NCBI GenBank assembly: GCA_022614855.1
Contig: JAKEHU010000015.1
Span: 1-44,286 of the forward strand
Length of the DNA: 44,286 nt
Source of the DNA: Chlamydiota bacterium
GTDB lineage: Bacteria > Chlamydiota > Chlamydiia > Chlamydiales > Rhabdochlamydiaceae
Reading direction: 5' to 3'
Shown here: in pieces, positions 16,377 through 35,756 of the stretch
Numbering within the stretch: the first letter of the stretch is position 1
Layout of the letters: every line of letters starts with the position of its first letter
Program-made: the position numbers and the translations under genes
Notes under the pieces: model-generated
The model's input: the letters and a program-made list of their open reading frames with translations, nothing else
Told to the model about the DNA's origin: nothing
Databases searched by the model: none

Positions 16377-16753
16377 AAGATTTGTTCCGTATTATCCGAG
16401 ACGAGGTTAAAACCTATACTCGGAATACTGGCATTGAAGAAACAAGGATTATGCTAATGATTGGAGCAATTTATGAAGAATCGAAAAACCCTGATGTAAA
16501 AGAAGGATCGATTCTTTTAAAAGATATTGGGGTCTATGAACAACATGATCCTTTTATCGTTTCAATTGCAAAAAGAAAGCTAGGAATTGTAATTGAACCT
16601 AATATTGTTATCTCATCACCTATATCAAATATGATAATTAGAGAACCTGGTTTTATTTTAAAAGCAAAATACAGATCTTATAAAGAAAAGGTCGGCTCTC
16701 ATTGGAGCCGATCAATTTTTTGGAAGGTTGTAGATTGGTTGATGAGCTCCTGA
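16355..16753 (+). CDS. Hypothetical protein downstream of trpR
   Basis: A protein of 132 residues starting MATTTPIEDLFRIIRDEVKT, with an ideal ribosome binding site (AAAGGAGG, five bases before ATG) that lies inside a hairpin. No signal peptide, membrane segment or known motif is seen. The predicted fold is a helical N-terminal half followed by a beta-rich part (KLGIVIEPNIVISSPISNMI). The last 20 or so codons (KVGSHWSRSIFWKVVDWLMS) are encoded by a bidirectional terminator and the end of the convergent gene, so the C-terminus may be an accidental extension after loss of an earlier stop. Possible trpR partner or target; function unknown. Confidence 0.6.
   Translation: MATTTPIEDLFRIIRDEVKTYTRNTGIEETRIMLMIGAIYEESKNPDVKEGSILLKDIGVYEQHDPFIVSIAKRKLGIVIEPNIVISSPISNMIIREPGFILKAKYRSYKEKVGSHWSRSIFWKVVDWLMSS
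16690..16721. terminator. Bidirectional intrinsic terminator
   Basis: GGTCGGCTC (16690-16698) and GAGCCGATC (16705-16713) pair around a six-base loop. AATTTTTT follows on the plus strand, and TTTTCTTT follows on the minus strand. It lies between convergent genes: the minus-strand gene stops at its edge (TGA 16714-16712), while the plus-strand frame runs through it. Confidence 0.8.
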
Positions 16754-17590
16754 AGTCATTGGCAAGCTATCAGGTTGAATTGCAGGATATCTCAAAATAA
16801 TTTCATCTATTACTCTTCCAGTGAATGGTAGATTATTATATTGAAAACGGTCTTGAAGTCTAATTTGTGAAATTTTCATAAGTCCTTTTGTAAGAAGGTT
16901 GTTAACTTCATCAAGGGTGATAGGTTCTATTTTACCAAAATGCAAGTCATAAGCCGTTGAAGAAATAATTGTTTTTGCCTGATTTTGCATGATATGGACC
17001 ACTACTCGTCTTTCATTGTTAAGTGTACATGTTTCACAAGGGATAAAAAATTCGAAGTTTTCATTTCGGACGATTGTTTCAGGGAGGGTGCCTTTTTCTG
17101 CCTCGCTAAATGAATATTCCCCTGCATCCTCTATTTTGACGGTCTTATCTGTTCCTCCGAAAAGCTCGCGCACCTTTTTAGGACAATCCAATTGAACCCT
17201 CATATATTCTATCACTTTCATATCGATAAATGGGATTTCAGGTTGATTATGAAGTGCTGTGAAGTATTGTTTTCGATAATCTTTGCTCAAAATGAGAAGG
17301 GCGATTTTTGTAATTGAGCCAATGAGCAGAGAGGGAAAGGAAAATAGAGCTGAAAGAATAAAATAGTGAATTTTAAAAACCTTAGCTTCTTTAGAAAATT
17401 CAATGACTTTGATCTTTGCCTCTGGATCTACAAGATATCTCGATACATCCATGAAATTTCCTAAAAAATATTGGAAAGGGTAAAAGGAGGTATTGGAAAT
17501 CTTATGAAATATTGTTTTCCAACCTCTGTCCACTTCAAACTTGTAATTGTCTTCTATGGTTGTGGTAAAAAAAAGAGATACATTTTTCAT
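16712..17590 (-). CDS. Hypothetical membrane protein, last gene of a three-gene operon
   Basis: A protein of 292 residues with no N-terminal signal peptide. One long hydrophobic stretch at about residues 75-103 (FILSALFSFPSLLIGSITKI and onward) could form one membrane span or a tight hairpin, with large soluble parts on both sides. A bilobed hydrophobic segment in an otherwise soluble protein is a feature of chlamydial inclusion-membrane proteins, but such features are weak evidence. A Cys-x-x-Cys occurs in PCETCTLNNERR. The start overlaps the stop of the FAD monooxygenase by four bases (ATGA), so they are translated together. A strong terminator ends the unit. Family not recognised. Confidence 0.7.
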   Translation of the reverse strand: MKNVSLFFTTTIEDNYKFEVDRGWKTIFHKISNTSFYPFQYFLGNFMDVSRYLVDPEAKIKVIEFSKEAKVFKIHYFILSALFSFPSLLIGSITKIALLILSKDYRKQYFTALHNQPEIPFIDMKVIEYMRVQLDCPKKVRELFGGTDKTVKIEDAGEYSFSEAEKGTLPETIVRNENFEFFIPCETCTLNNERRVVVHIMQNQAKTIISSTAYDLHFGKIEPITLDEVNNLLTKGLMKISQIRLQDRFQYNNLPFTGRVIDEIILRYPAIQPDSLPMTSGAHQPIYNLPKN

Positions 17591-19095
17591 AGCAAAATTT
17601 CTCCTATAAATTTTTCGAGATGCGTTTGATTTAAGGGGGTTTGCCTGTAGCCGACATAGAGATCCGGTCTGATGAGGTAGGCAGCCGTGAGGTGTGCTCC
17701 ATAAATGGCATGGGCAGCACGTGAAGAATCGAGGAAAAGGTGAGAAGAGGGGATTTCTGCGGGTGGTTCAGAAGCATCAATGATGAGCAGGGGAGTGATG
17801 AGATCTGAATATCGAGAAGTGATATGAGTGGCAATTTGGGAAAGAAGCTGTAAGTTTTTTGGATGGAGGCCGCTAAAGAGAAGAAGGTGGAATGGGGTCC
17901 TTTTTCTCCAAATGGTATAAAAATCGATCGGATCCTCTTTCTTAAATACGAGTGCATTTGGCGCTCTTGTTCCAGCTTTGGGACCTGCATGGAAAATACC
18001 TGCTTCTGCAATGAAATCGCTTTTAGAATAGCGGAGGGCAATTTGGGAAATTGCTCTGGTGAGTTTTTTTTGGATAAAAGCATAATTAAAAAGTTTGGAG
18101 ATAAGGTAGTTTCGAAGAGAAATTGCAAAAGAATTGCGGATAGTTGCTGCACGAGAAGCGCGCTCGGTTGCTTTAAGCAGATTTTTTCCTACTTCGTGTC
18201 TTTCTTGATGATAAGAGTCGAGCAGTTTGGGATTTGCTTTTTTTTGATGAATGAGAGCTAATTTCCAGCCAAGGTTAAATGCATCTTGAATGCCGGTATT
18301 CATTCCTTGTCCTCCAACAGAGCTATGAAAATGAGCAGCATCGCCAGCAATAAATATCCTTCCTTTTTGATAGCTAGTAGCTAAGCGGCTATTAACAACC
18401 CAATTTGTCTCCCATCTTTCGAGCTGAAAAACTAGGCGATAGGGGGTTTTTCCAGATATGGGGATTGTGGCCATTACCTCCTCTGCATCAAAAAAAATCG
18501 AGAATTCATCACCCGGTCGATTCCCATCGATTTCCATATCAGCGAGAGAAAAGTTATCGGAAAAAGCCTTTTCTTCAAAGGGTAAACTCAAGTTTTTGCG
18601 GACGAAGCTGTGAGCTCCATCACAGCCAATGATCCAATCGGCTCGTAAGGTTTCCTCTTTACCTGGATGCTTTAAAGTTGCATAGATGGCATCTTCATCT
18701 TGTGTCAATGCAATCAGCTCTACTTCGCGCTCTATTGAAAGATGAAGGGAAGAGAGGTATTTTGTGAGAATCTGCTCTGTTTTGCTCTGCTCTACACTTA
18801 AGACAAAGGGATAAGGTGAGCTCAGTTTTTTAAAGGAGAGGTGGGCAAGGGGTTTTGCTTTGCTTATTAAAGTTGCATCATAGAGTTTAACTCCTTCTGC
18901 AATAAAATCTCGCACAATTCCAAGATGGTCGAAAATTTCTAAGGTTCTTGGTTGAATGACTAAGGCTTTAGATTTATCAGAAGGTGTTTTTGCCCTATCG
19001 ATGATTCTGCAAGAGAGGCCATGTCGGGCAATTTCTGCTGCCATCATGAGGCCAGTTGGTCCTGTTCCTATGACGAGAACGTCGGTTTTTTTCAT
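17587..19095 (-). CDS. FAD-dependent aromatic-ring monooxygenase (PheA/TfdB-like)
   Basis: A 502-residue group A flavoprotein monooxygenase. The N-terminal Rossmann motif GTGPTGLMMAAEIARHG (GxGxxG, residues 10-15) binds FAD; the DG motif is WIIGCDGAHSFVRK; the GD motif is RIFIAGDAAHFHSSVGGQGM. The C-terminal 100 residues resemble the thioredoxin-like domain of this subfamily, ending AYLIRPDLYVGYR. Relatives hydroxylate phenols, polyketide rings or quinone precursors with NAD(P)H and O2. It overlaps both neighbours by four bases (ATGA), placing it between two unknown membrane proteins. Substrate unknown; hydroxylation of the product of the type III PKS at 31.6-32.7 kb is a speculation worth testing. 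Confidence 0.9.
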   Translation of the reverse strand: MKKTDVLVIGTGPTGLMMAAEIARHGLSCRIIDRAKTPSDKSKALVIQPRTLEIFDHLGIVRDFIAEGVKLYDATLISKAKPLAHLSFKKLSSPYPFVLSVEQSKTEQILTKYLSSLHLSIEREVELIALTQDEDAIYATLKHPGKEETLRADWIIGCDGAHSFVRKNLSLPFEEKAFSDNFSLADMEIDGNRPGDEFSIFFDAEEVMATIPISGKTPYRLVFQLERWETNWVVNSRLATSYQKGRIFIAGDAAHFHSSVGGQGMNTGIQDAFNLGWKLALIHQKKANPKLLDSYHQERHEVGKNLLKATERASRAATIRNSFAISLRNYLISKLFNYAFIQKKLTRAISQIALRYSKSDFIAEAGIFHAGPKAGTRAPNALVFKKEDPIDFYTIWRKRTPFHLLLFSGLHPKNLQLLSQIATHITSRYSDLITPLLIIDASEPPAEIPSSHLFLDSSRAAHAIYGAHLTAAYLIRPDLYVGYRQTPLNQTHLEKFIGEILL

Positions 19096-21398
19096 GTTTG
19101 GGATGGACTTCTTCTAATCCATTGAGCAAATTTAATGAGAAGAAGTTTTCGATAAGTATCGATAGCAATGTTGTGAAGAACACCTGCTCGAAAAGCTCCT
19201 TCAACACCATTGCTGTCACCAACCCATTCAATTTTGTCTGAAAGTTCACGTATCATATTAAGCCAAGAAAAATCATGATCATATATCTGCCATACACTAG
19301 GAAGATGAATAGGGGATCCATTTTGTTCAAAGATCTCCGATGGACCGTTTTGCCACAAACTCACGAAATCATAAATCGTACTCAAAGTATCATTTTTCAG
19401 TACTTTGATTTTATACCTGGTAAACAATATTAAGTTTGTAAGGAAAGCTCCTCGGATAAAGAATCGGTTAATACGTTCACTTTGGCCTATTTTAGAAAAT
19501 ATGATCCCACCAATGGTAGCCTTAGGAAAGCGATAGATCTGGACTCCTATAAAAAAAGCTGGAACTAGATAGTGAAATGCAAATTTGGCAATTTTTTGGA
19601 CCTCTCTTACTTTGGAAGGAGTTACCTTATTTAATCCACCAGCTAAAAGTTTTTCTAATCTATTTTTCAGACCCTGCTCTGAAAGTGTTTCACCCTTTTT
19701 TGGCAAAATCTTTTGATCCAATAAATCTTTTATGGTTTCTATTACATTTTGTTTGAGTAATGTTTCAACTGTTTTAAAGGCATTATCTCCAATCGGGAGA
19801 TCCAATTCAGTTAAAAGCTTTGTGCAAAATTCAAGAGTAAAACCATATGGCCCAAGTGAAACAAAAATATCATCATCTAGATCATCTTCTATCTTTTTTT
19901 CTTTAATGGATTGCAAAAGCTTTTTTATGCGCATTAGAATATTTTCCTGTTTAGTAGCAGTTGAAACGGAAATGGCATTGAAACAGGTTTCAATGTCTTT
20001 TTTATGATTCATAATTTCATCGATAAGTTTTCTATTAGTGCGATGATCTGTAGCTGAACGGCGGCATAGATATATGCAATTTTCATTCAACTCCTCATAA
20101 ATTTCTTGCAGCCTTTTACTCCATTGAGAATTCTCATTAAGACCAGCTGCTTGTTCAGCTTTTTTAAGCTCCTCTTCGAATCCACTTATGCAGAGAGTGA
20201 TTCTATCTACCTCTTTCATCTTCTTTTCGTCGATCTCTTTTCCAGATTGCTGCAAGAGACTAGAATGGTCTTTAATAAATTGACACAACTCTTTAGCCTG
20301 GTCTTTAAGAATTTTGATATGTTTAATCAGCTCTTGATTATTTGGGTATTCTTTAGAGACAAGGAACAAAATACTTTTTAATTGAGCAATGTATTTAGAA
20401 GCTTCAACGATTTCTTTATGAACTTCTTGCAAATCTCCGAGCAGTGGAAGATTATTTTTTAGATCTGGCTCCTTTTCAGCTTTTGCAACTAATTGTTGCC
20501 AATTTGTTAAGTTGTCGCTAATCAGCAGGATTTTTTCTTTATTAAATGACTGTAGTTTGGGAGTTAAAACCTCTTTAATTTTTTCGTCTGGCAGATTATC
20601 GGACAAAAAGTAAAATGTTAATATTCTTGGGAAGCGTTCAATGAGTCTTTCTAGATCCTCATTTTTATAGACAAATGGTAACCTTACTTTAAAAAAATTT
20701 TCGATTTGTTCATCTGAGGCTTTAATAGCATCAAGTGTGTCCATCTCTTCAATAATGCTCTCAACAATATCTCCATTTTCCTTGTGAAGTTTTTTGACTG
20801 CTTCTACAAGAAAATTAAAAATTATGCTAGGCTTTTGGACCGTGCGAATAAAATCCGCGACCACTTTGACTGCTTCATCTGTTTTTTTCTCAAGGGAGAA
20901 AAAAATTTGAAAGAGAGCCAATCCAAAAGGAATTTCATATCCAATTGCATTTAAAATTGCGCCAATCTTTAACAGACCTTTTACAAATAGATCTACAGTC
21001 AGTTTTTGATTGTTGGTAAATAGATGGTACAACAATTGGGTCTTGAACAGGGCGTATGCGGTTTCATTTGCCAATCTTATTGCACCAAACCCAAGAATTA
21101 TTGTTTTTAAAGAGTTTAAAGCTGCTGTTACCTTTTCTTTTCTTTTACCTTGATCTTGTTCCAAACTGGTCTTAGATAAGGAGTAGAGTTGTCGATAGAC
21201 CAGATAGGCCCCTAACCAATCTACGATGAGGGCTCTGGCTAAACTGATTAACTCACAATTTCTCTTGTTGAGACTTACGTAAAGGGTTGTTGCTCCCGCT
21301 CCAGCGGCTAAAACATAGGGAAAGTATTGACGGATATTTTGAACATTGAGCTGGGGTAGGCAATTTGTATAATTTTCAATTCGAGGAAAATAAATCAT
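19092..21398 (-). CDS. Large hypothetical membrane and coiled-coil protein
   Basis: A protein of 768 residues, first gene of an ATGA-coupled operon. Hydrophobic segments lie near residues 28-45 (YVLAAGAGATTLYV), 58-70, 95-130 and 145-170, and again near 630-690 (HYLVPAFFIGVQIYRF and RGAFLTNLILF). The middle (about 190-600) is a long, charged, helical region rich in Lys, Glu and Leu with coiled-coil character. No known enzyme motif is seen. The layout, membrane ends and a helical centre, would suit a protein inserted in a host or inclusion membrane or an envelope scaffold, but that is inference. The 146 bases upstream are AT-rich and shared with the divergent gene at 21545. Confidence 0.72.
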   Translation of the reverse strand: MIYFPRIENYTNCLPQLNVQNIRQYFPYVLAAGAGATTLYVSLNKRNCELISLARALIVDWLGAYLVYRQLYSLSKTSLEQDQGKRKEKVTAALNSLKTIILGFGAIRLANETAYALFKTQLLYHLFTNNQKLTVDLFVKGLLKIGAILNAIGYEIPFGLALFQIFFSLEKKTDEAVKVVADFIRTVQKPSIIFNFLVEAVKKLHKENGDIVESIIEEMDTLDAIKASDEQIENFFKVRLPFVYKNEDLERLIERFPRILTFYFLSDNLPDEKIKEVLTPKLQSFNKEKILLISDNLTNWQQLVAKAEKEPDLKNNLPLLGDLQEVHKEIVEASKYIAQLKSILFLVSKEYPNNQELIKHIKILKDQAKELCQFIKDHSSLLQQSGKEIDEKKMKEVDRITLCISGFEEELKKAEQAAGLNENSQWSKRLQEIYEELNENCIYLCRRSATDHRTNRKLIDEIMNHKKDIETCFNAISVSTATKQENILMRIKKLLQSIKEKKIEDDLDDDIFVSLGPYGFTLEFCTKLLTELDLPIGDNAFKTVETLLKQNVIETIKDLLDQKILPKKGETLSEQGLKNRLEKLLAGGLNKVTPSKVREVQKIAKFAFHYLVPAFFIGVQIYRFPKATIGGIIFSKIGQSERINRFFIRGAFLTNLILFTRYKIKVLKNDTLSTIYDFVSLWQNGPSEIFEQNGSPIHLPSVWQIYDHDFSWLNMIRELSDKIEWVGDSNGVEGAFRAGVLHNIAIDTYRKLLLIKFAQWIRRSPSQT

Positions 21399-21991: not shown

Positions 21992-23026
21992 TTAGTAGCT
22001 CGTCTTGTCAATTTTCACTTTCCCCCTAAAAACTTTATAGACGTAAGATCCATAGAAAAAGCTTAAGGGAATGCCGGTTAAGCCGATGATCGCAATAACG
22101 ATGAGAGCAAGATGAGAGGCAGAGCTGTTGTACAGGGTCATCGAGTTCGTCTCTGGCAGGACAGAAGAGTAGACGATATTGGGAAAGGTGCCGATGATGA
22201 AGAGGAGGAGTAAAAAGACGATGCAAAAACAGGAGCTAAAAAAGGCCCAGCCATCTCGTTTTTTCATCAGATTTCGCACGATGAAAAAGATGGAGCCAAG
22301 GCTTAAAGTAGGAAAAATAAAAAGGATCGGGTAACGGAAAAAGGGGACTACCATGTAGGGCTTAAAGATGAAGGTAGAAATGGTCGCAAATGCCCAAAAA
22401 AATAGGAAAAGTGCGAGGATTCTATGTGTCCATTTTCGAATTTTTTCTTGGAAAGGACCTTCGGTTTTCATCAAGACGTAAATGGAGCCATGCATGGTAA
22501 ACATGGAGATTCCAAAAAGGGCAATTAGGATGGGATAGGGGGTAAGAAGCTCGATCATACCTCCTTCATATTCTCCAAGATCATTTAAGGGCATGCCTTG
22601 AATCATATTTCCCAGGATAAGGCCAATTGTGATTGCAAGGAGAATGCTTGCAAGGGAAAAGGCAAAATCCCAAAAATAGCGCCATGTTTTACTAGCCCCT
22701 TTGCTTCGAAATTCTATGGATGCAGCTCTGAGCATGAATCCAAATAAGAGAACCATTGTCGGTGTGTAGAGACTAGAGGTTAAGTTGGCAAATACTTTGG
22801 GAAACCCGGCAAAAAGCACACCACTTCCAATTACAATCCAGGTGGTATTTCCATCCCAGACAGGTCCGATAGAGTTGATCATGATGCGCCGTTCATTATC
22901 TCCTTTTGTAAAAAGATGCAAGGTACCAACACCCAAATCAAATCCATCTAAAGTGGAATAGGCGATGATAGAAAAGACAAAAATGAAGTAGGTGATGAGC
23001 TGCAGAAATTCAAAAGAGATGGTCAT
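21992..23026 (-). CDS. cydB: Cytochrome bd-type quinol oxidase subunit II
   Basis: A 344-residue protein with about eight to nine membrane helices. The opening AYSTLDGFDLGVGTL and IGPVWDGNTTWIVIGSGVLF are hallmarks of CydB. It partners CydA in the oxygen-reducing quinol oxidase of the inner membrane, which works at low oxygen. The start overlaps the cydA stop by four bases (ATGA). Chlamydiae are known to carry cydAB as a terminal oxidase. Confidence 0.96.
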   Translation of the reverse strand: MTISFEFLQLITYFIFVFSIIAYSTLDGFDLGVGTLHLFTKGDNERRIMINSIGPVWDGNTTWIVIGSGVLFAGFPKVFANLTSSLYTPTMVLLFGFMLRAASIEFRSKGASKTWRYFWDFAFSLASILLAITIGLILGNMIQGMPLNDLGEYEGGMIELLTPYPILIALFGISMFTMHGSIYVLMKTEGPFQEKIRKWTHRILALFLFFWAFATISTFIFKPYMVVPFFRYPILFIFPTLSLGSIFFIVRNLMKKRDGWAFFSSCFCIVFLLLLFIIGTFPNIVYSSVLPETNSMTLYNSSASHLALIVIAIIGLTGIPLSFFYGSYVYKVFRGKVKIDKTSY

Positions 23027-24396
23027 TTTTTCTTCTTCTCCTCTTTATCTTTATATACGTCTCGATAGGGAAGTTCTTCTTCGATTACCTCTGGCCCATT
23101 TTGAATTTTTCGATTCAAAAGAACGAGAAAAAGAGCAAAAAAGAGAAGATACATAATGACAAACATTGTTAAAGAACCAACAATTTGCCCAACGGTGAGG
23201 TTTGCAGAAAAGGCATCTTTTGTTTTGAGAAGTTTGTATACAATCCAGGGCTGTCTTCCCATACAGGAGCTATACCAACCAGCGATATTAGCAATTTGCG
23301 GAAATGCAACAGAAACGATCATAAACCATAAAAAAATGGGTCTCATTTTCCATCTATTTCTCACCCAATAATAAATGCCAGCTGCCGAACCAATTACCAT
23401 AAGTACCCACATCATGACCATTAAATGATACGTTTGAAAGACAGCTGCTACCCAGGGCCATTGATCCTGAGGAAATTGATCCAGACCGGGGACTGGCTTT
23501 GTAAAGCTTCGGTAGACGAGAAAGCTTAGCACTCCCGGCAATCTAAGGCCATAGACTTTTTGCTCTTCGGAGTTAACCCATCCAAGGATATAAATGGGTG
23601 TAGAAGGGGTAGTTTTATACACACCCTCAAATGCTGCCAACTTTTCTGGGTTATGGTTTGCAGTTTTACGGGCCAGATTGTCTGCAGAGACAAGTTGAAG
23701 GAGAACACAGCTTCCCGAAATGAGCAGCCCAATTTTCATCGATTTTTTTGCAAATTCTAGATGGCGATCTCGCAAAAGGTAGTAGGCTGCAACACTGATA
23801 ATCAAAAAAGCTCCTGTCAACCAACAGGCTAAAAGCACATGGGTTAAATGGCTCAAATTTGTCGGGCTTAAAAACATGTCGAGCCAATTTGTCACCTTTG
23901 CAATGGTTTCATTTCCCTGTTTGACAAGTTGATAGCCAGAGGGTGCTTGCATCCAAGAGTTGGTGCTTACAATCCAGATCGCGCTAAAATGAGCGCCAAA
24001 AGCAACAAAAAAAGTTGATAGGAAGTGAATTTTTGGACTGACACGGTTCCAACCAAACAAAAGCACTCCTAAAAATCCTGCTTCAATGAGAAAGGCAAAA
24101 AATCCCTCTGCACCAAGGAGGCTTCCAAAGACATCCCCAACAAACCGCGAGTAGCGTGCCCAATTTGTACCAAGAGAAAACTGAAGGGGAATTCCCGTTG
24201 CTACACCTAGTGCAAAAGTGAGGGCAAATACTTTTACCCAAAAGCGGGTGATCTTTTCCCATATTGGATTTTTAGTTTTAAGATACATTCCCTCCATGAA
24301 AATGAGCGCCAGAGAAAGGCCAATACTAAGAGGAGGATAAATGAAGTGAAAGGTGATGGTAAAAGCAAATTGAATTCGAGATAGTAGTTCAACCAT
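23023..24396 (-). CDS. cydA: Cytochrome bd-type quinol oxidase subunit I
   Basis: A 457-residue heme-binding subunit with about nine membrane helices. The N-terminal FHFIYPPLSIGLSL contains the conserved heme-ligand His (residue 17), FSLGTNWARYSRFVGDVFG is the conserved quinol-oxidase block, and LTHVLLACW holds a second expected heme-ligand His. GRQPWIVYKLLKT near the end is also a family hallmark. The Q loop (residues about 245-300) is of the short type. It is probably co-transcribed with the upstream glycosyltransferase (six-base gap) and with cydB (four-base overlap). Confidence 0.97.
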   Translation of the reverse strand: MVELLSRIQFAFTITFHFIYPPLSIGLSLALIFMEGMYLKTKNPIWEKITRFWVKVFALTFALGVATGIPLQFSLGTNWARYSRFVGDVFGSLLGAEGFFAFLIEAGFLGVLLFGWNRVSPKIHFLSTFFVAFGAHFSAIWIVSTNSWMQAPSGYQLVKQGNETIAKVTNWLDMFLSPTNLSHLTHVLLACWLTGAFLIISVAAYYLLRDRHLEFAKKSMKIGLLISGSCVLLQLVSADNLARKTANHNPEKLAAFEGVYKTTPSTPIYILGWVNSEEQKVYGLRLPGVLSFLVYRSFTKPVPGLDQFPQDQWPWVAAVFQTYHLMVMMWVLMVIGSAAGIYYWVRNRWKMRPIFLWFMIVSVAFPQIANIAGWYSSCMGRQPWIVYKLLKTKDAFSANLTVGQIVGSLTMFVIMYLLFFALFLVLLNRKIQNGPEVIEEELPYRDVYKDKEEKKKK

Positions 24397-26280: not shown

Positions 26281-27564
26281 ATGCTGTCATTATTAAAAAA
26301 TAAATTTAAAGAAATTGCACATGGTATCGCAACCTTTTCTGTGCAAGAAAAGCTCTTTATCATCTGTGCGATGTTGTGTGGATTTCTCATCTGTAGTGAA
26401 TATGCCATCATTCGGCCGGTTAGCAACTCTCTTTTTATCCATGCCTACTCATCGAACTTTTTTCCTTACGTCTGGCTTGCGACCATTCCAGTAAATCTGC
26501 TCTTAGTCTCTCTCTATAATTATCTTTTGCAAAAGTGGGGGTGTATCAAGCTCTTTTTTATTGTTGTCTCTATTGTTATAGCTGTGAATTTCACTGCGGC
26601 ACTCTTTTTTCAAAAAGCTTCTTTCATTCCCTTTGCTTTTTATATTTGGAAAGAAATCTATGTCCTTCTCATGTTCCAGCAGCTCTGGTCTGTCATCCAC
26701 TCCACCATAAAAATCGATCAGGCAAAATATCTCTATGGACTCTTCTTTGGGATGGGATCCCTAGGAGCGGTCTCGGGGAGCTTTTTAGCCAGCAATTTTG
26801 CTACCAGCTTGGGATCCGAAAAGCTCTTATTTTTTACTCTTCCCATCTATTTTCTCATGGCTCTCATCTATCGAAAAATGGTGAAAAATAGTTCGGCAAA
26901 TTCGATACAAGCTGAGCTCTCAGAGCAAAATACCCCCTCGTTTCTTCATGGAGTTAGGCTGATTAAAAACTCCAATTTTCTCTTGTTAATTTTATCTGTT
27001 GTTATCTTCATGCAGGTCATCTCTTGCATTGTCGATTTCCAGTTCAACCACTATTTAGAGATAAATTATCCCAATAAAGATTTTAGAACGGAATATGCAG
27101 CAAAAATTTTGTCCGTTGTCCATGTCGTTACTTTATTTCTCCAATTCATCGGGAGTTTTGTGCTGATTCAACTCCTAGGTTTAAAAAGAGTACACATGTT
27201 TGTTCCTCTATTTTTAAGTTTAGGAATCATCGGAGGGTTACTTTTTCCCTTCATCTCCTTCCTAGCCTTTTCTTTTGTTGCTGTTAAGTCGTTCGATTTT
27301 TCTCTCTTTGGAGTGATCAAAGAAATGCTCTATGTCCCTTTAAGTCCAGAAGAAAAATTTCGCGCTAAATCACTCATCGATGTGTTTGCTTATCGCACTG
27401 CAAAAGGCCTTGCTTCTATTATGATTCTTCTATTGCAATTCATCGCCTTTTCTCAAGTTTTTTACCTGCTTCATTGGATTGCTATCGTTATTTTTGCTAT
27501 TTGGATAGCCATCATGGCAATTATGTTTAAAAAGATTGAAATTCCTGCTAAAGAATTGTTTTGA
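26281..27564 (+). CDS. TLC (ATP/ADP translocase)-like membrane transporter
   Basis: A polytopic protein of 427 residues with about 12 membrane helices. YAIIRPVSNSLFI after the first helix and EEKFRAKSLIDVFAYRTAKG near residue 360 resemble the conserved blocks of the TLC/Npt nucleotide transporter family, which obligate intracellular bacteria use to exchange or import host nucleotides and NAD. The similarity is clear but divergent, so the substrate may not be a nucleotide. The stop shares one base with the start of the malic enzyme (TGATG), which suggests coupled translation and perhaps a substrate linked to central carbon or cofactor supply. Confidence 0.72.
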   Translation: MLSLLKNKFKEIAHGIATFSVQEKLFIICAMLCGFLICSEYAIIRPVSNSLFIHAYSSNFFPYVWLATIPVNLLLVSLYNYLLQKWGCIKLFFIVVSIVIAVNFTAALFFQKASFIPFAFYIWKEIYVLLMFQQLWSVIHSTIKIDQAKYLYGLFFGMGSLGAVSGSFLASNFATSLGSEKLLFFTLPIYFLMALIYRKMVKNSSANSIQAELSEQNTPSFLHGVRLIKNSNFLLLILSVVIFMQVISCIVDFQFNHYLEINYPNKDFRTEYAAKILSVVHVVTLFLQFIGSFVLIQLLGLKRVHMFVPLFLSLGIIGGLLFPFISFLAFSFVAVKSFDFSLFGVIKEMLYVPLSPEEKFRAKSLIDVFAYRTAKGLASIMILLLQFIAFSQVFYLLHWIAIVIFAIWIAIMAIMFKKIEIPAKELF

Positions 27565-29827: not shown

Positions 29828-30367
29828 GTGAAAAAAAAAGTGGTGGATGCTCCTAAAGAATCTGCAAAAAAAGTTAGCAATCTTCACAACAAATTAGAAA
29901 ATGATTCCCTTCCTCTTTCAAACATCTGTTGCAACCACGAATTTACCCAATTCAAGTCTTTAAATTTTTTAGCTCATCTGAGAAAAGAAAATAGAAAAAA
30001 ACCTGGGAAAAAATGGACTGCAGTCAAGTTCAAAAATAGTCCTTCTTTAAAAGAGCAATTCTCAGAAAATTTAGCCTACTCTGGACTTTTTCTTCTTTAT
30101 ATGAACTATCTTATCTCCCTTTTTGAAAATAAAAAGCTTGAGGGAAAAAGGATTAAAAGCCTTAAATTAAAAGAACATTATGCTGCTTTTTGCAACTTTA
30201 AAAAGACAATCAAATTTACTAACTGGATAAATGATCAATTTAAGAAAAAAATCAAAAAAATAGACCTTAAAAATGAGTTATCTTTAGAAGGAAAAGTTCA
30301 TGATCCTGCCTATTCCAACCCAGTTTTGTATCCAAAACAGCAGATCACAGACATTACAGCACTTTAA
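29828..30367 (+). CDS. Lysine-rich hypothetical protein
   Basis: A protein of 179 residues from a GTG (MKKKVVDAPKESAKKVSNLH). It is strongly basic, with many Lys and Asn, no signal peptide, and a single short hydrophobic helix at about 83-100 (YSGLFLLYMNYLISLF). Its 3' end overlaps the convergent methyltransferase gene by 14 bases. No in-frame ATG gives a better start, and no clear Shine-Dalgarno sequence is present. The family is not recognised. Base composition is A-rich compared with its neighbours, which is compatible with a young or fast-evolving gene. Confidence 0.55.
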   Translation: MKKKVVDAPKESAKKVSNLHNKLENDSLPLSNICCNHEFTQFKSLNFLAHLRKENRKKPGKKWTAVKFKNSPSLKEQFSENLAYSGLFLLYMNYLISLFENKKLEGKRIKSLKLKEHYAAFCNFKKTIKFTNWINDQFKKKIKKIDLKNELSLEGKVHDPAYSNPVLYPKQQITDITAL

Positions 30368-31112
30368 TTGCGTACCCAGAATACCCGGTTGCTAAAGAAG
30401 GGGTAAAGGTAAATTGAAAATCAGGTTCAACTTTTCGTGTGAGCAGCATTTTCCAAAATGCCGAGTGTTTAAAATCTGGGCGCACTCCTAAAAACTGCTC
30501 TACCCTCAATCCAACGTTCTCACACATTTCGGATAGCTCTTGCGGCTTGAGAAATAGGGGATAGACATGCATGCGATCTGGAGGGTTGAAAAAACACCAT
30601 TCCACTCCTTTGATCACCATGAAATAGCTCATGATATTTCGATTAAAAGTGTGAAAGAAAAATAGACCATTTTTCTTAAGCAACCTTGCCGCCTCTTTAA
30701 TGACGATTGCTGGCTTTTCTACATGTTCTAATAGATCCATAGCACAAATCACATCAAAAGAGCCATCTTTGTAAGGGAGATCATAAGCGCTTGCTCTCAA
30801 ATAGCAGACGCTTTGTGTTGTGTCTTTTTTTCTGGCAATTTCTAAACTTTTTTCCGATAGGTCAACCCCATGAACCTCGTGTGCCTTCAATGCTAAGTAG
30901 TTTGTTAAAAACCCACCACCACACCCAACATCCAAAATTTTACAAAGTGTAGCTATTTTTTCATTGATGATTCGATTGATCCAAGGATTTCTAAGCTCAT
31001 TTTCCGCGCGCAAAAGAGCAACAGGGTGATCTTTTGAAGTATGCCACTTTTCATTTAGATCATCATAAAAAGCATTGTTTATCGGTATAGTTTTAACTTT
31101 TCTTCTTTCCAT
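30354..31112 (-). CDS. UbiG-like SAM-dependent O-methyltransferase
   Basis: A protein of 252 residues from ATG 31112 (MERRKVKTIPINNAFYDDLN). ILDVGCGGGFLTNYLA (residues 59-74) is SAM-binding motif I, with GVDLS as the acidic loop and FDVICAMDLLEHV downstream. The INNAFYDDLNEKWH opening resembles UbiG, which methylates phenolic hydroxyls in ubiquinone synthesis. The frame is open further upstream, but those 71 residues are a shadow of the membrane-protein gene. It is last in a tight set with a type III polyketide synthase and a membrane protein (34-base overlap), so its substrate is more likely the polyketide phenol or quinone than a ubiquinone precursor, though the latter remains possible. Confidence 0.88.
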   Translation of the reverse strand: MERRKVKTIPINNAFYDDLNEKWHTSKDHPVALLRAENELRNPWINRIINEKIATLCKILDVGCGGGFLTNYLALKAHEVHGVDLSEKSLEIARKKDTTQSVCYLRASAYDLPYKDGSFDVICAMDLLEHVEKPAIVIKEAARLLKKNGLFFFHTFNRNIMSYFMVIKGVEWCFFNPPDRMHVYPLFLKPQELSEMCENVGLRVEQFLGVRPDFKHSAFWKMLLTRKVEPDFQFTFTPSLATGYSGYAIKVL

Positions 31113-31597
31113 ATGAAATTCCAATATATGATTTGATAACACAAAAAAAGAGCCATAGCAATAACCTGTCCATAGAGAAGATATTGCAAATGCGATGGAT
31201 TTTCCATCCATTTTACATACCAGTGACTTGCAATTTCCTGAGAAGAAAGGGAAAGCGCCCACCAGATTAAACCTATACCACCAAGCAAAATGGGGTGGTT
31301 GATAAAGAGGAGTGCATGGACCCAATTTTCGCTTGCAGGACAGACATGTTTATGGATAAATTCATCCTTTGTCACCATTAAGCAAGAGATAACGCCTAAG
31401 CCAAGATACCACTTTAATGCTCCGTCTGAATAGGAGATGAAACAGGTAAAAAGCAGACAGATAAGTAATGATAGTGTATCAATTGGATGGCCAATTCTTT
31501 CCCACTTAGGCAAACCTCTTTTGATATGAAAGTAATACTCATCAAAAAGGATGAGAAATGCCTGTACAAAAAAGGGAATTGCAATGAGCCATTTCAT
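31079..31597 (-). CDS. Histidine-rich multi-pass membrane protein in a type III PKS operon
   Basis: A protein of 172 residues from ATG 31597 (MKWLIAIPFFVQAFLILFDE), overlapping the PKS stop by four bases (ATGA). About four to five membrane helices. Conserved-looking polar clusters at helix ends, FDEYYFHIKRGLPKWERIGH and KDEFIHKHVCPASENWVHAL then INHPILL, hold six His plus Asp, Glu and Cys. Such a layout is reminiscent of membrane di-metal enzymes (hydroxylases, desaturases) but matches no family I can name. The 3' end overlaps the methyltransferase start by 34 bases. Role inferred from context: tailoring or transport of a lipid-like polyketide. Confidence 0.78.
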   Translation of the reverse strand: MKWLIAIPFFVQAFLILFDEYYFHIKRGLPKWERIGHPIDTLSLLICLLFTCFISYSDGALKWYLGLGVISCLMVTKDEFIHKHVCPASENWVHALLFINHPILLGGIGLIWWALSLSSQEIASHWYVKWMENPSHLQYLLYGQVIAMALFLCYQIIYWNFIWKEEKLKLYR

Positions 31598-32688
31598 ACT
31601 TTTTGAAAAATTCCTCCCCATACGGTTAAACCAGGACCAAAAGCCAAGCTCACAATCATAGTTCCTTGAAGAACATTGGGATCATTCAACATGCTTTCCC
31701 AAATATGGGGGAGCGTCGCAGAAGACATATTTCCATACTTTTCTAAAATTGCTTTGCTGTGCACTGTTTGCCCTGCAGAAAGCCCAAGCTTTTTTTCTAT
31801 CTCTTCAATTATCTTTGGACCACCAGGGTGGATAGCAAAAAGAAAATTTGTCCTATCAACTGTATTCATTTTGCCTTTTTTAAAGAGCTTTTCCAAAAAT
31901 CTTTCCAAACAATTCATAAAGAGGGAAGGAACAGCTTTATCGATGGTTAGATAAAATCCATTTTCATTTGGCTGCCAGGTCATTTTGTCAAGAGATTCTG
32001 GGATGATTTCTTCCCAGAGCGCAACCACTTTTAATCCTGCTTTATCCGGTTTTTCTTGGACAACATATTTGATGAATCCATCAGCAAATAGACTTTGGAC
32101 AACGAGCTGTTCAGAATTGTGTAAATAGGGGTTCATATGAAGACTGCACATCTCAGTATGGACAATATCTGTTGGTTCTTTCGACTGGTGAAGTTCATTC
32201 ACAGCCATGCGAATCGCTGGAAGAGATGCATAGCATCCCATATGATAAGCATGGATAATCGAAACCTTGTCTCCTAAATTTCGATTTGCGATCAACCTTT
32301 GCGCACCACTGGGAGCGACGTAACCTGTACAAGTGACATGGATAAGATGGGGAGAAATTTCGCTCTTTTCAGGATAGAATTTTTCAAAAATGGATGCTGT
32401 TTCCTTGCTAAAAAAATCCATTTTTTCATTTAGATTTGACATGCAATTTGCTTCTACCGTCGCATGAACCTGTGCTCCTCTGGAAGCAATTTTGCTTTTT
32501 GCCAGTCCAATGTAAAAAAGGCGATCCCTTACTTTTTCATAAAAAGCATCCTTTTCTGGACTATTTTCTTCCCAATTTTTTGACTTTCCTTCTGCTTTTA
32601 CATGGCAATTTGCAAGAAATTCTAGTGTCTCCTGTTGAGAGGCATGAAAATTTGGACGAATGTGATGAAATTTAGATAAATAAGCCAC
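31594..32688 (-). CDS. Type III polyketide synthase (chalcone/stilbene synthase superfamily)
   Basis: A 364-residue homodimeric-type condensing enzyme that extends an acyl starter with malonyl-CoA and cyclises the product. The catalytic triad is visible: Cys152 in YHMGCYASLPAIRMA, His287 in FAIHPGGPKIIEEI, and Asn320 in YGNMSSATLPHIWE, with plant-enzyme-like spacing. VTCTGYVAPSGAQ is the conserved block before the nucleophile, and GPGLTVWGGIF is the C-terminal GxGLTxE/V-type block. Known bacterial members make alkylresorcinols, alkylpyrones or tetrahydroxynaphthalene. The gene lies 12 bases after the TauE-like gene and is followed by a membrane protein and a UbiG-like methyltransferase. Unusual for a host-associated chlamydia. 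Product unknown. Confidence 0.92.
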   Translation of the reverse strand: MAYLSKFHHIRPNFHASQQETLEFLANCHVKAEGKSKNWEENSPEKDAFYEKVRDRLFYIGLAKSKIASRGAQVHATVEANCMSNLNEKMDFFSKETASIFEKFYPEKSEISPHLIHVTCTGYVAPSGAQRLIANRNLGDKVSIIHAYHMGCYASLPAIRMAVNELHQSKEPTDIVHTEMCSLHMNPYLHNSEQLVVQSLFADGFIKYVVQEKPDKAGLKVVALWEEIIPESLDKMTWQPNENGFYLTIDKAVPSLFMNCLERFLEKLFKKGKMNTVDRTNFLFAIHPGGPKIIEEIEKKLGLSAGQTVHSKAILEKYGNMSSATLPHIWESMLNDPNVLQGTMIVSLAFGPGLTVWGGIFQKV

Positions 32689-32700
32689 TAAACTCCATTG

Positions 32701-33495
32701 TTAAATAAGCATGACAATGGCAACGAGTAACAGAAAACCTCCAAAAAATTTTCTCAATTTATTCCCATCAAGCGTATGCGCTAATTTTACTCCAAGAGGG
32801 GCGGTAAAGATCATTGATATCCCGATCAGAATAAAAGCTGGCAAATAAATGTATCCAATGCTTTCAGCTAATGCAACATGTTTCATTCCATAATAGAGAT
32901 AGCCGATTGCACTTAAGAAAGAAACGACAAGACCAATAGCAGCTGCTGACCCAATTGCCTTTTTTTCTTGATAACCCAACCCAATGAGCATGGGAACTGT
33001 GAACACACCTCCACCAAGTCCCAAAATACTAGCCGTAGAAGAGATCAAAAGCCCCAACCAGGTTAAGGTAGACTTTTTCGGTTTTACGGGTGTGTGTCTT
33101 TTAAAGGTAAAAGGTCTGAAAAAATGGACTGCTAAAATAATGAGGAAAAAAGCAAAAATCATTTCCAAAACAACACTTGAAAGGAACTGGGTAGCAAAAG
33201 CGCCGAGAAGAGACCCTAAGATGAGTCCTGGCAACATTGCAATAAACACATCCCAAAGAACAGCTTCTTTTCTATGGTGAAGATACATGGCAATACTGGC
33301 TGCTATCACTACAGATGCCAAAGAAGTGCCAAGGGCCGTATGAGCCAGATAAGCCTGTGGAAAATCTATGAACTTTAGAGTATAGATAAGAGAGGGGACG
33401 ATCACCACCCCGCCACTAATCCCAAATAAGCCGGCAAAAAATCCAGCAAAAGCTCCGATGCAAGCAAAGAGGACTAGCGCAAGAATGGCATCCAT
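32701..33495 (-). CDS. TauE/SafE-family membrane transporter
   Basis: A 264-residue protein of about eight membrane helices built as two homologous halves, each starting with the glycine-rich motif (AGFFAGLFGISGGVVIVPSL and SILGLGGGVFTVPMLIGLGY). The family moves anions such as sulfite, sulfoacetate or sulfonates; the substrate here is not determinable. The stop is 12 bases from the PKS start on the same strand, so it may be co-transcribed with the PKS operon; upstream is cutA with a 49-base gap. Transport of a sulfur compound or of the polyketide product are both open. Confidence 0.88.
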   Translation of the reverse strand: MDAILALVLFACIGAFAGFFAGLFGISGGVVIVPSLIYTLKFIDFPQAYLAHTALGTSLASVVIAASIAMYLHHRKEAVLWDVFIAMLPGLILGSLLGAFATQFLSSVVLEMIFAFFLIILAVHFFRPFTFKRHTPVKPKKSTLTWLGLLISSTASILGLGGGVFTVPMLIGLGYQEKKAIGSAAAIGLVVSFLSAIGYLYYGMKHVALAESIGYIYLPAFILIGISMIFTAPLGVKLAHTLDGNKLRKFFGGFLLLVAIVMLI

Positions 33496-34895: not shown

Positions 34896-35756
34896 ATGAA
34901 AGGCAAAATCTTATTACTCTCGATTTTTAGTTTGGTAGCCCTATCGGGTTGCATGGAAAGCGGATCTTCTATCCTAACTAAAGTGATGCCTAGTAAAAAG
35001 TCAAATGAACAGCTTTCGCCGCAACTCTTTGAGGGAATTGCAATTGGCAATGTCACCCGCGTTAGTGAATTATTGGAGAAAAATGTCAGTGTCAACTCGA
35101 GAAATAGCTTTGGTGATACCCCTTTGATTCAAGCTGTTCGGTCCAATCAGATCAATATGATTAAGCTTCTTGTTGCAAATGGAGCTGATGCCAATTTACA
35201 AGATTTGGATGGTGCGACGCCTCTTATGATCGCTCTTAACAATGGAAATAAACCCATGCCAAAGCCCTTGAATGATGGGTCGACAATATTCATTGAACCA
35301 CAGGGAAATTTGCACCAATTTTTGGTGGAATTTTTGATTTCTGCTGGGGCAAATATCAACGCAAAAGATTACCAAGGTAGAACCTCTTTAATACGCTCTT
35401 CAGCCGCAGGCAATGTGCATGCCGTTAAACTCTTAATTGAAAAGCATGCGGATATAAATTTAACAGATGATCGAGGAAATACAGCCCTGGTCGCCTCTGC
35501 AATGAATGGGCATACCGAAACAGTAAAAGCTCTTCTTGAAGCCTCTGCTGATGTAGATGTTGTAGATCAAGAAGGTCAAACAGCGCTCATTTATGCTGCA
35601 CAAAATGGACATACCGAAATTTGTAAACTTCTCGTGCAAAAAGGTGCCTCTACTCAAATTAAAGACCATTTTGGAGCTAGCGCACTCAAGCTTGCAAAGC
35701 TCAGGGGTAACAAAGAGATCATCAATCTTTTGGAAAAAGCTGGAGCTACTGATTAG
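34896..35756 (+). CDS. Ankyrin-repeat lipoprotein
   Basis: A protein of 286 residues. A lipoprotein signal (MKGKILLLSIFSLVALSGC) has its lipobox Cys at 19. From about residue 46 it is built of seven or so ankyrin repeats, such as FGDTPLIQAVRSNQINMIKL, RGNTALVASAMNGHTETVKA and EGQTALIYAAQNGHTEICKL. The third repeat is interrupted by about 25 residues (KPMPKPLNDGSTIFIEPQGN). GAGGAAATT precedes the ATG. Ankyrin proteins bind other proteins; here it would be tethered to the inner or outer membrane, facing the periplasm or surface. Ankyrin proteins are common in host-adapted bacteria. Confidence 0.93.
   Translation: MKGKILLLSIFSLVALSGCMESGSSILTKVMPSKKSNEQLSPQLFEGIAIGNVTRVSELLEKNVSVNSRNSFGDTPLIQAVRSNQINMIKLLVANGADANLQDLDGATPLMIALNNGNKPMPKPLNDGSTIFIEPQGNLHQFLVEFLISAGANINAKDYQGRTSLIRSSAAGNVHAVKLLIEKHADINLTDDRGNTALVASAMNGHTETVKALLEASADVDVVDQEGQTALIYAAQNGHTEICKLLVQKGASTQIKDHFGASALKLAKLRGNKEIINLLEKAGATD

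Follow-up and report, generated by a model that had tools for sequence, protein, structure and literature searches.

A type III polyketide synthase cassette in Chlamydiota with a membrane protein outside known families, probably for a methylated phenolic or quinone-type lipid

Introduction

What would a type III polyketide synthase (PKS), a methyltransferase (MT) and a small membrane protein make together in a chlamydial genome, and what is the membrane protein for? We addressed these questions for a 44,286-nucleotide stretch of contig JAKEHU010000015.1 (assembly GCA_022614855.1, Chlamydiota bacterium), hereafter the window, in which an earlier note made from the sequence alone had described an operon of these genes behind a TauE/SafE carrier. 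The PKS, the membrane protein (hereafter MEM) and the MT form a unit conserved across several phyla, whose product is probably a membrane lipid of methylated phenolic or quinone type. The unusual part of the locus is MEM, a component of no known family.

Results

A conserved PKS-MEM-MT cassette

The open reading frames of the locus were as follows.

31594..32688, minus strand: type III PKS, 364 amino acids, GTG start, predicted alkylresorcinol synthase (PF02797, ArsC similarity, AlphaFold2 model)
31079..31597, minus strand: MEM, a 172-amino-acid membrane protein of an undescribed family with five predicted transmembrane (TM) helices, candidate metal-dependent hydroxylase
30354..31112, minus strand: UbiG-like S-adenosylmethionine-dependent O-methyltransferase (MT), 252 amino acids (TIGR01983 above cut-off)
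32701..33495, minus strand: TauE/SafE-family carrier (PF01925, 152 bits)
29828..30367, plus strand: convergent open reading frame without assigned function, which closes the unit

The order on the minus strand is TauE, PKS, MEM, MT, with a 12-base gap between TauE and PKS (32701 vs 32688), a 4-base overlap (ATGA) between the end of PKS and the MEM start codon, ATG at 31597, and a 34-base overlap of MT (start 31112) with MEM, all in agreement with the arrangement first described. Homologues of MEM begin at the point matching 31597 in the family alignment, which leaves an alternative start (ATG 31621) unsupported.

We assessed conservation in a main set of 80 named loci, those that hold the nearest relatives of the PKS. 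MEM lay directly behind PKS in 75 of the 80, with a gap near zero in 74 of these, so that the conserved synteny named earlier as a test of the operon was found in strong form. MT followed MEM as a separate gene in 61 of the 75 loci and was fused to it in seven, namely six from Holophagaceae/Acidobacteria (Geothrix and relatives) and one from Oligoflexia; four of the remaining MEM loci were truncated at a contig end, and in three (L073, L080 and L099) no MT was adjacent. The conserved unit is PKS-MEM-MT, and it occurs in Chlamydiota, Bdellovibrionota, Myxococcota, Acidobacteriota, Fibrobacterota and a few Pseudomonadota. Outer neighbours were heterogeneous, no Pfam family occurring more than four times among 138 of them. 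TauE, which had been counted as an integral member of the operon, was the gene immediately before PKS in 14 of 35 chlamydial loci and in 0 of 38 non-chlamydial ones, a synteny that rules it out of the core, although it is probably co-transcribed with the cassette in the window. A simple promoter scan found 4 sites where 10 were expected.

Genome-level co-occurrence pointed the same way. Of 234 Chlamydiota species, 66 had a PKS of the same clade (clade A), and every one of these 66 genomes also had MEM; in three further Chlamydiota genomes only a contig-edge or remnant copy was seen. Among 291 Bdellovibrionota genomes, MEM was found in 70 of the 74 with the PKS. Although shared ancestry means that the counts are not independent, the two phyla agree. 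No MEM was found in viral contigs.

All chlamydial clade-A enzymes fell on one side of a branch of the PKS tree (Shimodaira–Hasegawa-like approximate likelihood ratio test, SH-aLRT, 98), so the cassette is old within Chlamydiota. The same side held a few bins labelled Verrucomicrobia or Acidobacteria, several of which whole-genome search filed under Chlamydiota. The host of the window (genome 1.51 Mb, 99% complete) was placed by its relatives and the PKS tree within Chlamydiota, in the family that contains Rhabdochlamydia and 'Sacchlamyda' loci. One bin titled 'Chlamydia trachomatis' (L059) also has the cassette; its PKS groups with environmental chlamydiae, and the label is probably wrong.

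The synthase is predicted to make alkylresorcinols

The C-terminal domain of the PKS matched Chal_sti_synt_C (PF02797) at 74 bits, above the Pfam cut-off of 27, and the N-terminal domain PF00195 reached 22 bits, under its cut-off of 27. The AlphaFold2 model (predicted local distance difference test, pLDDT, 91.3) matched ArsC structure 3vs9 in Foldseek (E 9e-40, template modelling score 0.93). The Cys152-His287-Asn320 triad, reported earlier as intact, is so, and it was kept throughout an alignment of 101 sequences that included the window's own. By triad, profile and fold, the protein is a member of the type III polyketide synthases (chalcone synthase superfamily). The diagnostic codons are:

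32233..32235, minus strand: catalytic Cys152, invariant (101/101)
31828..31830, minus strand: catalytic His287, invariant (101/101)
31729..31731, minus strand: catalytic Asn320, invariant (101/101)
31975..31977, minus strand: Trp238, equivalent to ArsB Trp281 and ArsC Gly284 (aldol vs lactone cyclisation), Trp in 101/101

The nearest relative in the PDB was Azotobacter ArsC (E 6e-56), and its G284W mutant (3vs9) scored above the wild type (3vs8) because the window PKS has Trp238 at that site, where ArsC has Gly. ArsB, with Trp281, makes alkylresorcinols and ArsC, with Gly, makes alkylpyrones; exchanging this residue swaps or shifts the product, and ArsC G284W gains alkylresorcinol activity (review PMC6274091). 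Since Trp238 is found in 101 of 101 sequences and the model is ArsC-like, alkylresorcinol is the best prediction for the product of the PKS.

A UbiG-like methyltransferase in a genome with a menaquinone operon

The MT scored 135.3 bits against TIGR01983 (UbiG; NCBIfam cut-off 102.95), and its top PDB relative was the UbiG structure 4kdc (E 2e-22). Together with the PKS profile, this bears out what had been read from the window, an operon of a chlamydial type III PKS and a UbiG-like methyltransferase. UbiG enzymes methylate a hydroxyl beside another oxygen, and a resorcinol ring has none such until it is hydroxylated. The sole UbiA-family gene in the genome is MenA, within the men operon, so the UbiG-like MT has no ubiquinone pathway to serve and a role in one is ruled out.

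A full classical menaquinone operon (menF, D, H, B, A, C and G) is present, and futalosine genes were not found in the genome. A cassette product that stands in for absent menaquinone is thereby ruled out, and a methoxy-alkylquinone would be an addition rather than a replacement. The earlier suggestion of a quinone substitute therefore fails as far as a missing quinone is concerned, and an additional or stage-specific quinone is possible. In the same window, cydAB (cytochrome bd quinol oxidase; 21992-24396, minus strand) fits O2-linked quinol oxidation.

MEM occupies a position held elsewhere by flavin or U32 proteins

We compared the third gene beside the PKS among related loci. A second chlamydial PKS clade (L111-L130), mostly from one family, probably Parachlamydiaceae, had PKS, MT and a flavin adenine dinucleotide (FAD) oxidoreductase in 18 of 20 loci and MEM in none, and MEM was likewise absent from all 30 genomes of this clade that were searched. 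Five relatives in the main set lacked MEM, both at the locus and in their whole genomes; two of them (L081 and L089) had a FAD enzyme and one, from Riflebacteria (L102), a U32 protein. In that locus and two others from Riflebacteria (L149 and L150), the PKS was followed by a Cys-rich U32-family protein, with MT behind it in L150, and a further riflebacterial locus (L151) had a FAD monooxygenase and MT across from the PKS. A phmmer search found no such FAD or U32 gene in any of the 75 MEM-bearing loci. UbiU and UbiV are U32-family, O2-independent hydroxylases with 4Fe-4S clusters (PMC6747719), and the riflebacterial U32 protein is possibly an O2-independent hydroxylase as well. The simplest reading of these gene contexts is that the slot belongs to a ring hydroxylase and that MEM would be a new way to fill it; the UbiG-like partner, needing neighbouring hydroxyls, would then make sense. 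The membrane protein, treated as accessory in the earlier note, thus proves a near-constant partner in several phyla that has no known family or fold and sits in the place of a flavin hydroxylase.

The window itself contains a FAD aromatic monooxygenase (17587-19095), 12 kb from the cassette. It is the middle member of three minus-strand genes joined by 4-base overlaps (16712-21398), which encode a 768-amino-acid protein, the monooxygenase (PRK06184 type) and a 292-amino-acid protein, the first and last without an NCBIfam match. Relatives of the monooxygenase were not found near other cassettes, so it was rejected as a conserved cassette partner; the trio is possibly a separate pathway or the source of a trans-acting hydroxylase.

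MEM has a dense set of invariant polar residues at one membrane face

No Pfam, NCBIfam or PDB sequence match was found for MEM, with 75 members scanned against Pfam and NCBIfam; weak matches to EXPERA, DUF4271 and EccD were noise. The AlphaFold2 model (pLDDT 92.6) consists of five long helices and had no fold match in the PDB (Foldseek, best E 1.2), by which membership of any solved fold was ruled out. The sequence families and folds of membrane di-iron hydroxylases (alternative oxidase, AOX; fatty-acid hydroxylase/desaturase; COQ7) were not recognisable in MEM by Pfam, NCBIfam, PDB or Foldseek searches.

The alignment of 75 MEM sequences contained 18 invariant residues (D19, H24, R27, E33, G36, H37, D40, S71, K77, D78, E79, H82, E90, H94, L97, F98, H101 and Q155), most of them in two segments.

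31478..31543, minus strand: MEM residues 19-40 at the TM1/TM2 end, with invariant D19, H24, R27, E33, G36, H37 and D40, and also E20
31295..31369, minus strand: MEM residues 77-101 at the TM3/TM4 end, with invariant K77, D78, E79, H82, E90, H94, L97, F98 and H101

All invariant polar residues through H101 lie at the TM1-TM2 and TM3-TM4 ends and hence on one side of the membrane, which should be the cytosolic side because the C-terminus is fused to a cytosolic MT in some species and the chain crosses the membrane five times. Four Glu-(x2-3)-His pairs (E20/H24, E33/H37, E79/H82 and E90/H94), together with H101, D40 and D78, make a putative metal site, possibly di-iron, plausible.

Divergent MEM paralogues occur away from any PKS in Bdellovibrionota (L152-L168), in variable contexts and with some putative metal ligands changed (H to N or Y). 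H24, H37, D78 and H82 are mostly changed in these unlinked paralogues, and D19, E20, E33, D40, E79, E90, H94 and H101 are mostly retained. This pattern indicates that conservation of H24, H37, D78 and H82 is specific to the MEM proteins linked to a PKS.

Discussion

A proposed pathway and its alternatives

We propose that PKS, MEM and MT form a self-contained cassette whose product is a long-chain phenolic lipid with a modified ring, of the polyketide-quinone type. The PKS would load a long acyl chain, carry out three malonyl-CoA extensions and cyclise the resulting tetraketide to a 5-alkylresorcinol through an aldol condensation, a step well supported by sequence. MEM would then bind a metal, perhaps as a di-iron centre, and use O2 to hydroxylate the membrane-bound alkylresorcinol on its ring, doing the job of the FAD oxidoreductase in srsABC, pkqABC, hidABC and the other chlamydial PKS type, and perhaps that of the U32 (UbiU-type) protein in Riflebacteria. 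The UbiG-like MT, its class supported and its substrate inferred, would O-methylate the hydroxyl so introduced, adjacent to one already present. The end product would be a methoxy-alkyl-hydroquinone or quinone, an extra membrane lipid or electron carrier beside menaquinone and perhaps, more speculatively, limited to one stage of the developmental cycle. We hold this mechanism as a whole tentatively, at somewhat less than an even chance, with most confidence in the formation of an alkylresorcinol and least in what MEM does chemically. The product class suggested before, a methylated phenolic lipid or quinone, is supported as the likely one.

Several observations weigh against the proposal. Loci L091 and L107 lack MEM and have no obvious replacement, the slot argument draws on where the genes lie and which occur together, and the case for a metal in MEM is made from its residues. 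The FAD aromatic monooxygenase of the window could supply a hydroxylase in trans. The Trp rule derives from two Azotobacter enzymes and may fail for distant homologues. To our knowledge, no product, transcript or enzyme activity is on record for any PKS-MEM-MT cassette.

It is unlikely, though well worth weighing, that MEM is a membrane enzyme of some other kind (a hydrolase/decarboxylase, an isomerase or a cyclase, for example) with the same product as its substrate, and that the cassette yields a methylated alkylresorcinol or resorcylic acid whose ring is never oxidised. Dense invariant Asp, Glu, His and Lys sites are common to many non-oxygenase membrane enzymes, and the chemistry of MEM is not fixed by any fold or sequence relative; however, MEM is exchanged for flavin or U32 proteins beside PKS enzymes of one type, and the hydroxyl beside another oxygen that UbiG enzymes need, judged by what is known of the family, is missing on an unhydroxylated resorcinol. 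Some alkylresorcinols are methylated with no hydroxylation, and the planctomycete MT appears to add a C-methyl group (PMC10896814), as this alternative would have it.

We give still less credence to a non-catalytic MEM that anchors or scaffolds PKS and MT at the membrane or exports the lipid. The protein is small, with five helices, and the fusions in Holophagaceae and one Oligoflexia genome would tether the MT, but 18 invariant residues, mostly charged or His and gathered at one end of four helices, are unexpected in such a protein; flavoenzymes would not replace an anchor, and 172 amino acids is small for a transporter. An alkylpyrone or other non-resorcinol polyketide, as with PKS18 or ArsC, is similarly improbable, for although the nearest solved structure is the alkylpyrone synthase ArsC, Trp238 stands in 101 of 101 sequences where ArsC has Gly, and it is the resorcinol-forming G284W ArsC (PMC6274091) that outscores the wild type.

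Relation to known systems

The proposed PKS-MEM-MT pathway most resembles srsABC/pkqABC of Streptomyces and Mycobacterium, likewise compact operons of a type III PKS, a methyltransferase and one more enzyme, with a predicted alkylresorcinol intermediate in organisms that also make menaquinone (PMC9927152). There the third enzyme is a flavin hydroxylase/oxidoreductase, whereas here it is MEM, and a polyketide quinone is the putative product. Set against a polyketide-quinone operon, the window has PKS and methyltransferase in one operon but no FAD-dependent hydroxylase/oxidoreductase in it, and the tested FAD types stood beside none of the MEM-bearing relatives. Because MEM replaces the FAD enzyme, we do not file the cassette with srsABC, pkqABC or hidABC, although it may work like them. 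The hierridin cluster hidABC of cyanobacteria (PMC8086630) and a planctomycete MT-oxidoreductase-PKS cluster (PMC10896814), for both of which alkylresorcinol products have been shown, also combine PKS, methyltransferase and a third gene; this third gene is a FAD-dependent oxidoreductase and MEM is absent, so that the second chlamydial PKS clade resembles them and the window cassette does not.

Azotobacter vinelandii ArsB and ArsC are the nearest solved relatives of the PKS, and the Trp is common to ArsB, but identity is ~30%, a type I fatty acid synthase is encoded alongside them, and MEM or a UbiG-like MT is not described there. With the ubiquinone pathway, including UbiU/UbiV, the cassette shares an MT over the UbiG cut-off, a logic of hydroxylation followed by methylation and, in Riflebacteria, U32 proteins in the position of MEM; unlike that pathway, in which the ring comes from chorismate, the ring here would come from the PKS, and the genome is without a ubiquinone pathway.

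A type III PKS pathway in a chlamydia had been called notable in itself. This overstates the novelty in one respect, as genome mining had already turned up chlamydial type III PKS clusters, with antiSMASH in 2022 (PMC9666466) and also in 2026 (PMC13229535). MEM, in turn, is more unusual than was claimed. A literature search of partial coverage found no earlier report of MEM or of the PKS-MEM-MT unit.

Other genes in the window

An ankyrin-repeat protein with a lipoprotein-like signal sequence (34896-35756, plus strand) is a possible host-interaction protein. A membrane protein (26281-27564, plus strand) has a weak C-terminal match to nucleoside triphosphate/diphosphate exchange transporters, and its gene shares 4 bases with the gene of a malic enzyme; in three relatives (for example L031) malic-enzyme proteins are also encoded near the cassette.

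Implications

A more far-reaching possibility, which we consider doubtful but worth stating, is that MEM represents a hydroxylase family of its own, made up of small integral-membrane proteins that use a metal to act on aromatic rings and that evolution can exchange for flavin or U32 hydroxylases. Such a family would complete a polyketide-quinone pathway in environmental chlamydiae, predatory bacteria and Acidobacteria, and chlamydiae would have, in addition to menaquinone, a second respiratory quinone that is stage-specific. Streptomyces spores switch between quinones (PMC9927152), which by analogy suggests a stage-specific role for the chlamydial product, and Azotobacter alkylresorcinols become part of the resting-cyst membrane (PMC4824345).

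If the proposal holds, a testable function could be assigned to a conserved but so far unnamed membrane protein family, and the hydroxylation of quinone precursors, for which few solutions are known, would gain a new enzyme type. It would also mean that a phenolic-lipid or quinone pathway survives genome reduction in obligate intracellular bacteria. As the resting stages of other bacteria (Azotobacter cysts and Streptomyces spores) are marked by the same lipid class, a link between the product of the cassette and the infectious chlamydial form would be testable.

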